From Actinomycetes bacterium (GTDB taxonomy: Bacteria > Actinomycetota > Acidimicrobiia > Spongiisociales > UBA5794), in the NCBI GenBank assembly GCA_024638645.1, contig JAHEJX010000001.1, positions 53,097 to 109,650 on the forward strand: a stretch of 56,554 nucleotides of DNA, read 5' to 3'. This document shows, piece by piece, positions 8,996 through 12,508 of this stretch; positions within the stretch are counted from its first letter, which is position 1; each line of letters opens with the position of its first letter. The notes beneath the pieces were generated by a model. It was not told the origin of the DNA. It saw only the letters and a list, made by a program, of their open reading frames with translations, and made no database searches. A program made the position numbers and the translations under genes.

Positions 8996-10105
8996 TCAGT
9001 ATGCATCGCTGGCCGCTTCAGCTTGCTCCAACGCCCGCAGCACATTGTTACCCAGTAGTCCTCGCAAGTCCTGCTCTTCCCAGCCGCGTTCGAGCAGCTC
9101 GGCCGTGAGGTTGGGGTACATGCTGACGTCTTCGAGGCCAGGGATGAGGATGTCCATGCCGTCGAAGTCGCTGCCAATGCCCACTGCATGGGGACCAGCG
9201 ACTCGAGCGATGTGCTCGACGTGGTCGGCAACCTCCGCCACAGTGCCGCGGGGTAGTTCAGAACGTCGATCTGCCAGGGCTTCGTCCACAGCTACTGGGT
9301 CGCCAAGCTCTGCCATCAAAGCGCGACCGTCGGCGAACATTTCGACCGACAGCTCTGCAGCGGTCCAATTCACGAACGCCGGGTAGAAGTTGACCATTAC
9401 GACGCCGCCGTTCGCTCCGACCTGGCGCAGTACGTCATCGGGCACGTTGCGCGGGTGTGGGGCAAGCTCCCGCGCGTTGGAGTGAGAGGCGATCACGGGC
9501 ACACCCGAGGCGCTGACTGCGTCGCGCATCGTGTCCGCAGATACGTGCGATATGTCGACCAGGATGCCGAGGCGGTTCATCTCGGCGACGACTGTTCGCC
9601 CGAAGTCGGTCAGCCCGCCGTGGCGGGCGACGTCTGTGGCGGAATCGGCCCAGTCGATCGTGTCTGCATGGGTCAGCGTCATGTAACGCAGCCCCCTACC
9701 GGCAAGCGCTCGCAACTTGTCGAGGGAGTTCTCGATGCAATGGCCACCCTCTGCCCCCAGCATTCCGCCGACGCGGCCGGCCTCGCGGGACTCGCGCACC
9801 TCGGCGGCGGTCCGTACGAAATCGAGGCGAGGGTCTCGTTCGCACATGGAGATCGTCAGGTCGATCTGTTCGTTGGTGGTTTGATACGGATGCTCGGTCC
9901 AGGCCGGGACGTATACGGACCAGAACTGGCCACCGACGCCACCCGCGATGAGGCGTGCGGTGTCGGTGTGTCTCATTGCCAAGTGGCTCGTGGTGTCGGC
10001 GTCGTCCAGGCCGTCGTGATACAACCTGATCGCCCACGGAAGGTCGTTGTGGCCGTCCACGACCGGCAGGCTGGCGTGGATCGCTCTAGCCCGTGCCAAG
10101 CTCAT
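8996..10105 (-). CDS. Membrane dipeptidase (renal dipeptidase), peptidase family M19
   Basis: 369-residue zinc dipeptidase-like protein. The first metal motif HxD is in VVDGHNDLPWAIR, a metal-bridging Glu is in GMLGAEGGHCIE, His residues are in ISHVS and IASHSNAR, and GIGSDFDGMD lies near the C-terminus. Length and order match M19, whose members cleave dipeptides and some lactams; the natural substrate here is unknown. There is no signal peptide, so it is probably cytoplasmic. Its ATG overlaps the stop of the upstream selenoprotein gene (ATGA), so translation is probably coupled. Confidence 0.92.
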   Translation of the reverse strand: MSLARARAIHASLPVVDGHNDLPWAIRLYHDGLDDADTTSHLAMRHTDTARLIAGGVGGQFWSVYVPAWTEHPYQTTNEQIDLTISMCERDPRLDFVRTAAEVRESREAGRVGGMLGAEGGHCIENSLDKLRALAGRGLRYMTLTHADTIDWADSATDVARHGGLTDFGRTVVAEMNRLGILVDISHVSADTMRDAVSASGVPVIASHSNARELAPHPRNVPDDVLRQVGANGGVVMVNFYPAFVNWTAAELSVEMFADGRALMAELGDPVAVDEALADRRSELPRGTVAEVADHVEHIARVAGPHAVGIGSDFDGMDILIPGLEDVSMYPNLTAELLERGWEEQDLRGLLGNNVLRALEQAEAASDAY

Positions 10106-10656
10106 TCTTCAGGAGCCATCCACGTCTCCATTGACACACCGAGTCCGTCGGCAATCCGGTTCACGTACGCGTAATAACCGACCACCTCGGCGATATCGAG
10201 AATGTCCCGGTCGCTGAAAGCGGCTCGGCGCAACGCATCAACATCGGCCGGCTCCATCTCGCCGGGAGTGAGCGTCAGCTTCTCGGCATAGGTGAGCATT
10301 GCTATGCGCTTGTCGCTCAGACCAGCGTTACGCCACCCTGCATCGATGCGCTCCAGAAGCTGGTCGTCCTTCAATAGCCGCCGCAGACCGCGGCGGTGGT
10401 GGATCGTTCAGTAGTCGCAGCTGTTGAGCCTGCTGACCGTCAGTGCAATCAGCTCTCGCTCGACCTTGCGCAGCGTCTTTGTCCCGGCCATTGCGGATCG
10501 ATAGAGGGCGTCGTGAGCCGCCATCGCCGCCGGGTTCAGTGAGTGGATCTGCATGATGTTGTCGACCCGGCTGGCTGCGGTGTCGGCCACTAACTCGTAG
10601 AGATCGGCGAGCGGTCCATCCCACTCGTCCTCACGGATGGTTTCGATCCAAGCCAC
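10102..10656 (-). CDS. AhpD-like/peroxidase-related selenoprotein with CxxU motif (in-frame TGA read as Sec)
   Basis: One continuous frame of 185 codons is interrupted only by TGA at 10408-10410. The first 82 residues and the last 101 are two halves of one carboxymuconolactone decarboxylase/AhpD fold (peroxidase-related branch). The family motif is CxxC followed by His, as in SCDYCxxHH. Here it reads C80-D-Y-TGA83-T-I-H-H, so the stop replaces exactly the second redox Cys. A hairpin with a GGTCT loop follows at the distance expected for a bacterial SECIS. This supports selenocysteine at 83 and a 184-residue CxxU thiol-peroxidase-like enzyme. Start is GTG 10656; the final TGA overlaps the dipeptidase ATG. 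The alternative, a nonsense mutation or sequencing error, does not explain the hairpin. AhpD-like selenoproteins have been reported from marine metagenomes, as I recall. Confidence 0.9.
10378..10396 (-). promoter_or_regulatory. Bacterial SECIS hairpin
   Basis: On the minus strand, the arms CCGCCGC and GCGGCGG form a perfect 7-bp GC stem around the pentaloop GGTCT. Exactly 18 bases separate the TGA from the loop. From memory, the E. coli fdhF SECIS has the same GGUCU apical sequence and the same 18-base distance, and SelB recognises guanines in that loop. Unlike fdhF I see no bulged U in the stem. The hairpin codes for RRGLRRL within the protein. Confidence 0.87.
10408..10410 (-). other. In-frame TGA, proposed selenocysteine codon (Sec83)
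   Basis: Reading the minus strand in the frame of GTG 10656 gives ...L N S C D Y, TGA, T I H H R R G L R R L L K.... Both sides remain in the same frame without any indel, and the protein family expects Cys here. The TGA lies 18 bases before a GGTCT hairpin loop. Confidence 0.88.
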
Positions 10657-10705: not shown

Positions 10706-11332
10706 ATGGCTATGCGACCCGCCGCCGAACTGCTTGTTGTAGAGGCCGCCGCCATCGAGCCCATCCTGCAATCGGCAGATGACACGGATTTCGATCTGCC
10801 AACCGTGTGCACCGGATGGAGTGTTCGCGACGTGATGGCACACTGCGCGGCGGCGCTCACTCGGGTGGCCGCGAACGATCTGCACGATTTCTCGCCGGAG
10901 GCCAACGAGGCCGACGTGGCCGCCCGCCGGGGCCAGTCGCCAGGTCAGGTTCTTGCAGAGCTGATCACAGGCTACGAGCAAGCTGCCGTCGCCATCGACG
11001 CCGCAGCGGGACGCCTCGATGGTATTGGGCTGGGAGAGTGGATGCATGGCGGCGACATCCGTGACGCGCTTAGCCTCGAAGGCGCGTACGAGAGTGAGGG
11101 CATCGAGCTCGCATTCGGATTGCTCGTCGACCGCTCCCACAATCTGGGGAAACCGCGGGTCATCGTGAACATTGGAGACGCAACGTTCGACTTCGGAGTC
11201 GGTGAGGCGATGACCACCGTGACGACCGACCGAGCCACGTTTGTGCGGATCTGCGGCGGCCGCCAACCTGATCCTGAGCGGTATCGAATCGAGGGCAAAG
11301 CCGGAATCGAGGACATGATCCTGTTCTCGTGA
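10706..11332 (+). CDS. DinB-like/mycothiol-dependent maleylpyruvate isomerase-family protein
   Basis: 208-residue protein of the actinobacterial TIGR03083-type family. The N-terminal four-helix DinB-like domain has the signature PTVCTGWSVRDVMAHCAAAL, with the metal-site His in MAHC and a further His in EWMHGGDIRDAL. Members include mycothiol-dependent isomerases and S-transferases; most are uncharacterised. The C-terminal part (FGVGEAMTTVTTDRATFVRICGGR) resembles an SCP2-like ending. It is divergent from the selenoprotein gene with 49 bases between them. Mycothiol use is inferred from the family. Confidence 0.75.
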   Translation: MAMRPAAELLVVEAAAIEPILQSADDTDFDLPTVCTGWSVRDVMAHCAAALTRVAANDLHDFSPEANEADVAARRGQSPGQVLAELITGYEQAAVAIDAAAGRLDGIGLGEWMHGGDIRDALSLEGAYESEGIELAFGLLVDRSHNLGKPRVIVNIGDATFDFGVGEAMTTVTTDRATFVRICGGRQPDPERYRIEGKAGIEDMILFS

Positions 11333-11407
11333 AGGCCGGTGCGTTGCCGAATTCCACGGTGCGACCTCTCCCTATACTTTTGCTTTCACCCCACTGAGGA
11401 GACTGAA

Positions 11408-12508
11408 TTGGTCGATGCCGCCGCTGTTCGCGCTGCAGTAGGTCTGGTCGAAGATCCCGAGCTCCATCGCAGCCTCGAGGAGCTCAAGATGCTCCGGGAG
11501 CTCGCGGTCGATGAGTCGGGCGTCGTTCGAGTCCTCGTTGCTCTAACCATTCCAGGGTGTCCATTGAAGGACAAGCTCAATTCTGATGTCACGGCTGCAG
11601 CCATGAGCGTCGATGGTGTAACCGCTGTTGAGGTCTCGTTCACTTCTATGACCGACCAGGAGCGCGCCGACTTGATGGTTGATATCCGCGGGGGTGCCGC
11701 CGCACGAGAAATCACTCTCGGCAAGGCAGGCTCGAAGACCCGAGTACTCGCGATCGGCTCCGGCAAGGGTGGCGTCGGCAAGTCCTCGGTCACCGCCAAT
11801 CTTGCAGTTGCTCTGGCTGAGATGGGCAAGAAGGTCGCCGTCATAGACGCCGACGTTTGGGGATTCTCGATTCCGAAGATGCTTGGCATCGACCGAAACC
11901 CGACAGTCATCGACGAGACACTGATTCCCCCTGAGGCTTACGGCGTTGCGGTGATGTCCATGGACTACTTCGTCAAGCCGGACCAGGCTGTCATATGGCG
12001 TGGCCCGATGCTCCACAAGGCACTCGAGCAATTCCTCGCCGATGTCCACTGGGGCGAGCCGGACTATCTCCTCATCGACATGCCCCCAGGTACGGGCGAC
12101 GTTGCGATCTCCATGTCGCAGTTCTTACCGCGGGCCCAGGCCATCGTGGTGACTACGCCACAGCCAACTGCACAGCGAGTCGCCAAGCGGGCCGGTTTGA
12201 TGGCCGGGAAGGTCAATCAGGAGATTCTCGGCATTGTCGAGAACATGTCCTGGTTCACGGGCGACGACGGTAAGCATTATCCGATCTTCGGCGAGGGCGG
12301 GGGAGAGGCTCTGGCCACCGATCTCGGCGTGCCACTACTAGCGAAGATCCCGTTGGTGATAGCTCTGCGCGACGGGGCCGACTCGGGCAAGCCGGTCCTG
12401 CACAACGATCCCCACGGCGAAGCGGCGGAAGCATTCCGCGTCCTCGCAAAGGAAATCGACGAACGCAAACCTCGCGTGCGAATGCATCCGGAGTTGGTGA
12501 TCAGCTAG
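11408..12508 (+). CDS. mrp: Mrp/ApbC (NBP35-like) P-loop Fe-S cluster carrier ATPase
   Basis: 366-residue protein: an N-terminal DUF59/MIP18-like domain (about residues 1-85) followed by a deviant Walker A ATPase (GSGKGGVGKSSVTANLA), then VIDADVWGFSIPKMLG and LLIDMPPGTGDVA. Mrp/ApbC proteins bind and transfer [4Fe-4S] clusters. I see no obvious CxxC pair in the C-terminal region, where many Mrp proteins have one. Start is TTG 11408, preceded by GAGGAG at 11396-11401 with 6 bases between; the frame is open further upstream, but without a better ribosome site. Confidence 0.9.
   Translation: MVDAAAVRAAVGLVEDPELHRSLEELKMLRELAVDESGVVRVLVALTIPGCPLKDKLNSDVTAAAMSVDGVTAVEVSFTSMTDQERADLMVDIRGGAAAREITLGKAGSKTRVLAIGSGKGGVGKSSVTANLAVALAEMGKKVAVIDADVWGFSIPKMLGIDRNPTVIDETLIPPEAYGVAVMSMDYFVKPDQAVIWRGPMLHKALEQFLADVHWGEPDYLLIDMPPGTGDVAISMSQFLPRAQAIVVTTPQPTAQRVAKRAGLMAGKVNQEILGIVENMSWFTGDDGKHYPIFGEGGGEALATDLGVPLLAKIPLVIALRDGADSGKPVLHNDPHGEAAEAFRVLAKEIDERKPRVRMHPELVIS

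Follow-up and report, generated by a model that had tools for sequence, protein, structure and literature searches.

An AhpD/TIGR01926-type selenoprotein is very probably encoded on the minus strand of the window, a stretch of 56,554 nucleotides from the actinobacterial contig JAHEJX010000001.1. The coding unit would be one gene (10656-10102), whose internal UGA is decoded as selenocysteine. The original prediction had proposed such a CxxU protein, hidden by its UGA codon, and it is supported by conservation of the UGA, by covariation in the hairpin that follows and by the presence of selA, selB and selD in the same genome. The features discussed below are the following.

10102..10656, minus strand: predicted selenoprotein gene, AhpD/TIGR01926 type, 184 codons plus a TGA stop
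10408..10410, minus strand: in-frame TGA, codon 83, predicted selenocysteine at the second position of the CxxC pair
10417..10419, minus strand: Cys80 codon, predicted partner of Sec83, invariant in 22 aligned rows
10378..10396, minus strand: putative bSECIS hairpin, 7 bp, loop GGTCT, identified by pairing, covariation and folding
8996..10105, minus strand: M19 membrane-dipeptidase gene, whose ATG overlaps the selenoprotein stop (ATGA)
10706..11332, plus strand: divergent gene of the mycothiol-dependent maleylpyruvate isomerase family (TIGR03083)
11339..12508, plus strand: Mrp/NBP35-type iron-sulfur carrier ATPase

The frame begins with GTG and consists of 185 codons including the terminal TGA. 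It contains a single internal TGA, as originally described. The residues around this codon read S-C-D-Y-TGA-T-I-H-H, and the TGA takes the place of the second Cys in the AhpD CxxC motif. Alignment with Cys homologues had been suggested as a check; five full-length homologues (P0008-P0012) carry Cys at the site and align through it. In all 6 pairs among the window gene and three congeneric genes, dN/dS lies between 0.03 and 0.22 both before and after the UGA, with several dS values high and rough. These ratios indicate that purifying selection acts on both sides of the UGA.

The UGA codon is conserved among relatives. A scan of genome contigs showed TGA at the site in 17/17 loci, two of which (L021 and L022) have the same gene sequence. 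Across the order, 59 of 138 genomes carry the clade, in 60 copies at an E-value of 1.4e-76 or better, and TGA is present in 59 of the 60; this count omits G086, which has a partial copy with a weaker score and with TGA. The class was sampled with 395 genomes, and at most eight candidates per genome were scored at E 1e-45. This yielded 79 clade copies in 78 genomes. Other stop codons at the site in close relatives had been named as evidence against the prediction, and none was found there: 78 of the 79 copies have TGA and one has a Leu codon. This sole exception, from G094 (L040, G094:C116:218-763), has TTA at the site and an intact stem, and represents either a recent loss of selenocysteine or a sequencing error. 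No Cys copy of the window clade was observed in the class sample. One extra stop was seen in two copies, at the gene end.

Some record titles in the set made up of L025, L032 and L021 do not agree with their DNA. The DNA of records titled Armatimonadetes and Acidobacteria is the same as that of contigs from genomes that are placed in the window's own family, and the gene in a Planctomycetaceae-titled record is identical to an Acidimicrobiaceae one. The titles or bins look wrong.

The hairpin downstream of the UGA has the sequence CCGCCGC-GGTCT-GCGGCGG, with a GC stem and a folding energy of -14.0 kcal/mol. The distance from the TGA to the loop is 18 nt. The bSECIS model quoted in PMC13188914 has a loop of 3-9 nt, a stem of 4-16 bp, a minimum free energy of at most -7.5, a G in the first two loop bases and a spacing of 16-37 nt. 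The window hairpin, with its 5-nt loop and 7 bp, falls within all of these limits as quoted there. It had been called a textbook SECIS, and this holds for its form. As evidence from a single sequence, however, the hairpin alone is weak in this GC-rich window, because a stem of at least 7 bp follows 128 of the 1596 TGA triplets on the two window strands under the same loop and spacing limits. Of 200 shuffles of the 46-nt stretch, 8 reached as good a fold (z -2.1). There was no Rfam match to a SECIS family at gathering and E-value thresholds.

It is the comparison among relatives that decides. We compared 61 distinct sequences of the TGA plus 60 nt, or 62 when the Leu form is included. The nucleotides at offsets 15 and 27 occupy third codon positions, and both codons encode Arg in 58/61 sequences, so changes at these offsets are mostly synonymous. 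A standard pair is present at 15-27 in 62/62 sequences, with five pair types; in 2000 shuffles, the mean was 39.2 and the maximum 47. The pair type requires at least 12 changes on the protein tree. Of all column pairs, this one also ranks first in corrected mutual information (0.695; the next is 0.416). In register, 400 of 434 stem cells are paired, and the best of eight slides gave 248. Failures to pair (n=61) occur once at 14-28, once at 18-24, in 6 sequences at 13-29 and in 25 at 12-30; the outer pairs are thus weaker and the steady stem is about 5-6 bp. The loop is GGTCT in 59 sequences and GGGCT in 2. The hairpin is maintained by selection, and the TGA in 78/79 relatives and the 15-27 pairing in 62/62 sequences exceed chance by a wide margin.

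The search of the genome for selA, selB and selD, proposed with the original prediction, found all three in the same assembly above cut-off (420.7, 332.4 and 417.2 bits, respectively). The selA gene adjoins selB on contig C184, and selD is on contig C211 (L036:1378-2427). The selD gene itself contains an in-frame TGA in its active-site motif, HGAGUACKLG, with a GC hairpin after the TGA. It is predicted to encode a second selenoprotein of this genome; it shares the in-frame TGA and the GC hairpin in a redox/selenium gene with the window gene and belongs to a different family.

The selC gene was not found in the assembly, which is 84.7% complete. The selC region of the congener G087, used as a DNA query, gave nothing in it, and neither did a tRNA-Sec pattern that matches 4/6 genomes. 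The best RF01852 match in the genome (47.7 bits) was rejected as selC, as ARAGORN calls it tRNA-Ser(GCU). Two of the three congeners, G087 and G088, have selC, with identical sequences, and in both it is adjoined by an aldolase-like gene. This aldolase-like gene has no match in the window's assembly, and only a remote match in the third congener, G089, which is also without selC. As this neighbor is missing together with selC from an incomplete assembly, selC is likely missing through an assembly gap. A complete genome without selB or selC had been regarded as counting against the prediction. Here selB is present; selC is missing, from an assembly that is incomplete, and is found in two of three congeners.

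The machinery was also surveyed across the order, in the 39 genomes that have the clade and a completeness of at least 90%. selB was found in 38 of them and a tRNA-Sec match over cut-off in 36, two of these matches being below 60 bits. In G066 (95% complete) the gene is present with two tRNA-Sec matches and no selB over cut-off. The co-occurrence of the clade with selB is weak support for the selenocysteine reading, because selB occurs in 113/138 genomes of the order anyway.

With Cys put in for the TGA, the protein contains a CMD/AhpD domain and matches the TIGR01926 peroxidase-related enzyme model with 129.3 bits (cut-off 81.8). The (seleno)protein model NF041238 (AhpD_rel_CFYUT) shares the AhpD-like character and the CxYU motif, but it is about twice as long and the window protein scores 53.9 bits, far below the cut-off of 175, and is not a member. 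The AlphaFold2 model, in which Cys stands in for Sec, has a mean pLDDT of 91.7. It has the same fold as the Cys-type AhpD-like proteins 6k40 (D. radiodurans) and 2pfx (Silicibacter), each with a TM-score of 0.86, and 3c1l (M. loti), the range being 0.83-0.86. The CxxC motif is at the same position in these proteins, which are 31-32% identical to the window protein and have Cys where it has Sec. Comparison with the Mycobacterium-type AhpD (1knc) gave a TM-score of only 0.50.

Glu68, Cys80, Tyr82, position 83 and His87 are invariant in 22 aligned rows. The catalytic set of the Mycobacterium-type AhpD peroxidase is Glu, Cys, His, Cys, His, with the same spacing; its second Cys is the reactive one. 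The window protein, with E68, C80, Y82, U83 and H87, differs from it in having Tyr for the middle His. In D. radiodurans, an AhpD-like protein gives protection against H2O2; its mutant is sensitive to H2O2, and the CxxC motif matters (PMC8945050). Because of the reactive second Cys of the mycobacterial enzyme and the role of CxxC in D. radiodurans, the selenol is predicted to be the reactive group and Cys80 its partner. The protein is likely an antioxidant enzyme of the AhpD type and may have thiol-peroxidase activity.

A mechanism can be proposed. SelB, guided by the hairpin, would decode the UGA as selenocysteine, and the product would be an all-helical protein of the AhpD fold with an active site of Glu68, Cys80, Tyr82, Sec83 and His87. 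If thiol AhpD enzymes are a guide, a peroxide or a disulfide would react with Sec83, which would then form a selenenylsulfide with Cys80 and be re-reduced by a cellular dithiol of the lipoyl, thioredoxin or mycothiol type.

The gene neighborhood was surveyed at 54 distinct loci (59 searched minus 5 repeats). In 12 of them, all in the window's family, the next gene downstream on the same strand is the M19 dipeptidase gene, and a divergent Mrp-type ATPase is nearby in 20 of the 54. At 8 distinct loci, an HTH gene on the same strand ends at most 70 nt upstream; it is weakly similar to the ArsR and SufR models and under the SufR cut-off, and it has no match in the window. The divergent mycothiol-type isomerase was considered as a partner and rejected, as it adjoins only one other locus. 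On contig C55, a molybdopterin-oxidoreductase-like gene (L018:4643-7328), which runs into the start of the window, is read in two frames that are separated by a few N.

These neighbors suggest the hypothesis of a role in iron-sulfur or thiol redox balance. Together with the M19 dipeptidase and the iron-sulfur genes, the selenoprotein could then make up a redox unit in which its main job would be thiol/disulfide reduction or shuttling rather than peroxide removal, either serving another peroxidase as its reductase or acting on a thiol of low molecular weight. We consider this possible but somewhat less than probable. The downstream dipeptidase, the divergent ATPase and the HTH gene are in keeping with it, and AhpD proteins are described as reductases of AhpC or, in C. 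glutamicum, of Ohr/OsmC peroxidases (PMC8945050). Against it stands the H2O2 protection by the D. radiodurans protein, described in the same paper. The M19, Mrp and HTH neighbors were also not found beside the gene in loci of other families, and so may reflect shared descent.

If the UGA were an ordinary stop, the frame would be a decayed gene or would encode two short proteins. The missing tRNA-Sec gene in this assembly agrees with this, as does the fact that most listed database entries hold the second half only: C-terminal pieces make up 75 of the 120 listed protein-search matches, and 62 of the 75 start with M-x-HH-x-RGLR, just after the UGA codon. The codon after the TGA is GTG in 25/61 loci, which gene callers can take as a start. 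The original prediction had anticipated that ordinary annotation would split the gene, and these pieces bear it out. In a decaying gene, frameshifts and other stops would be expected, whereas the relatives keep UGA with no other stop at the site, purifying selection is indicated on either side, the Cys homologues run through and the hairpin covaries. We regard an ordinary stop as very improbable.

The remaining 45 listed matches have Cys (30), Trp (11) or Leu (1) at the site, with 3 unreadable by the pattern. The Trp entries are P0003-P0007, P0015-P0018, P0021 and P0045, and are most simply explained as TGA translated by code 4. Readthrough of the UGA as Trp or another ordinary residue, with no selenium involved, would account for these 11 entries and for the Leu codon in one genome, but is just as improbable as an ordinary stop: the same gene ends at TGA, so the codon is also a normal stop here and a general TGA=Trp code is no explanation of the internal one, and the hairpin pairing, the redox-Cys position and the selenocysteine machinery favor Sec.

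Selenoproteins of this kind are already known. The 2026 review PMC13188914 lists an AhpD-like TIGR01926 CxxU selenoprotein, credited to the Sargasso Sea survey PMC1088965, and PMC2398784 lists AhpD-like 1 and AhpD-like 2. The listed protein (example entry MCB9421940.1) and the window protein share the family model, the CxxU motif, the UGA at the second Cys and a bSECIS. The known examples, as described in these sources, come from marine surveys, and the window clade differs in being actinobacterial and in having its own hairpin and neighbors. Within the open-licence literature, mostly at the level of listings, we found no description of the actinobacterial clade, of how nearly strictly it uses UGA, or of its neighborhood. 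The present analysis adds a well-supported selenoprotein clade, often halved by public annotation, in an order with selB in 113/138 genomes. With its covariation at synonymous codons, the hairpin offers a clean natural set of sequences on which to test bSECIS function, and the loss of selenocysteine can be tested directly on the Sec, Leu and Cys forms of the relatives.

A broader joint reading is doubtful, and we give it as speculation. AhpD proteins that depend on Sec would have radiated in Acidimicrobiia-type actinobacteria, and the window gene would represent one of the branches. Three separate TIGR01926 clades (CxYU..HHRRGLR, CxYU..AHLHDLR and CHYUMM.HG) would each keep the UGA, with a hairpin that differs from clade to clade, and loss of Sec would have given rise to the Cys forms P0008-P0012. 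For the window's family, this reading proposes a redox unit made up of the gene, the M19 dipeptidase, the Mrp iron-sulfur carrier and the ArsR/SufR-like regulator, which would act on a thiol and not on alkyl peroxides. In a quick tree, the Cys forms branch from within the Sec clade (SH-aLRT 96); this nesting was not accepted as firm, as the AU test does not reject a tree that keeps the Sec rows together with the Trp rows (p 0.09). The two further TIGR01926 clades with CxYU occur in the same order. The CxYU..AHLHDLR clade (L138-L150, L152 and L155) has its own hairpin, GACCTC-loop-GAGGTC, which is paired at all six positions in 15/15 distinct sequences, with a double change in two. The CHYUMM.HG clade, seen at three loci (L151, L153 and L154), has the hairpin GGAGCC-loop-GGCTCC.
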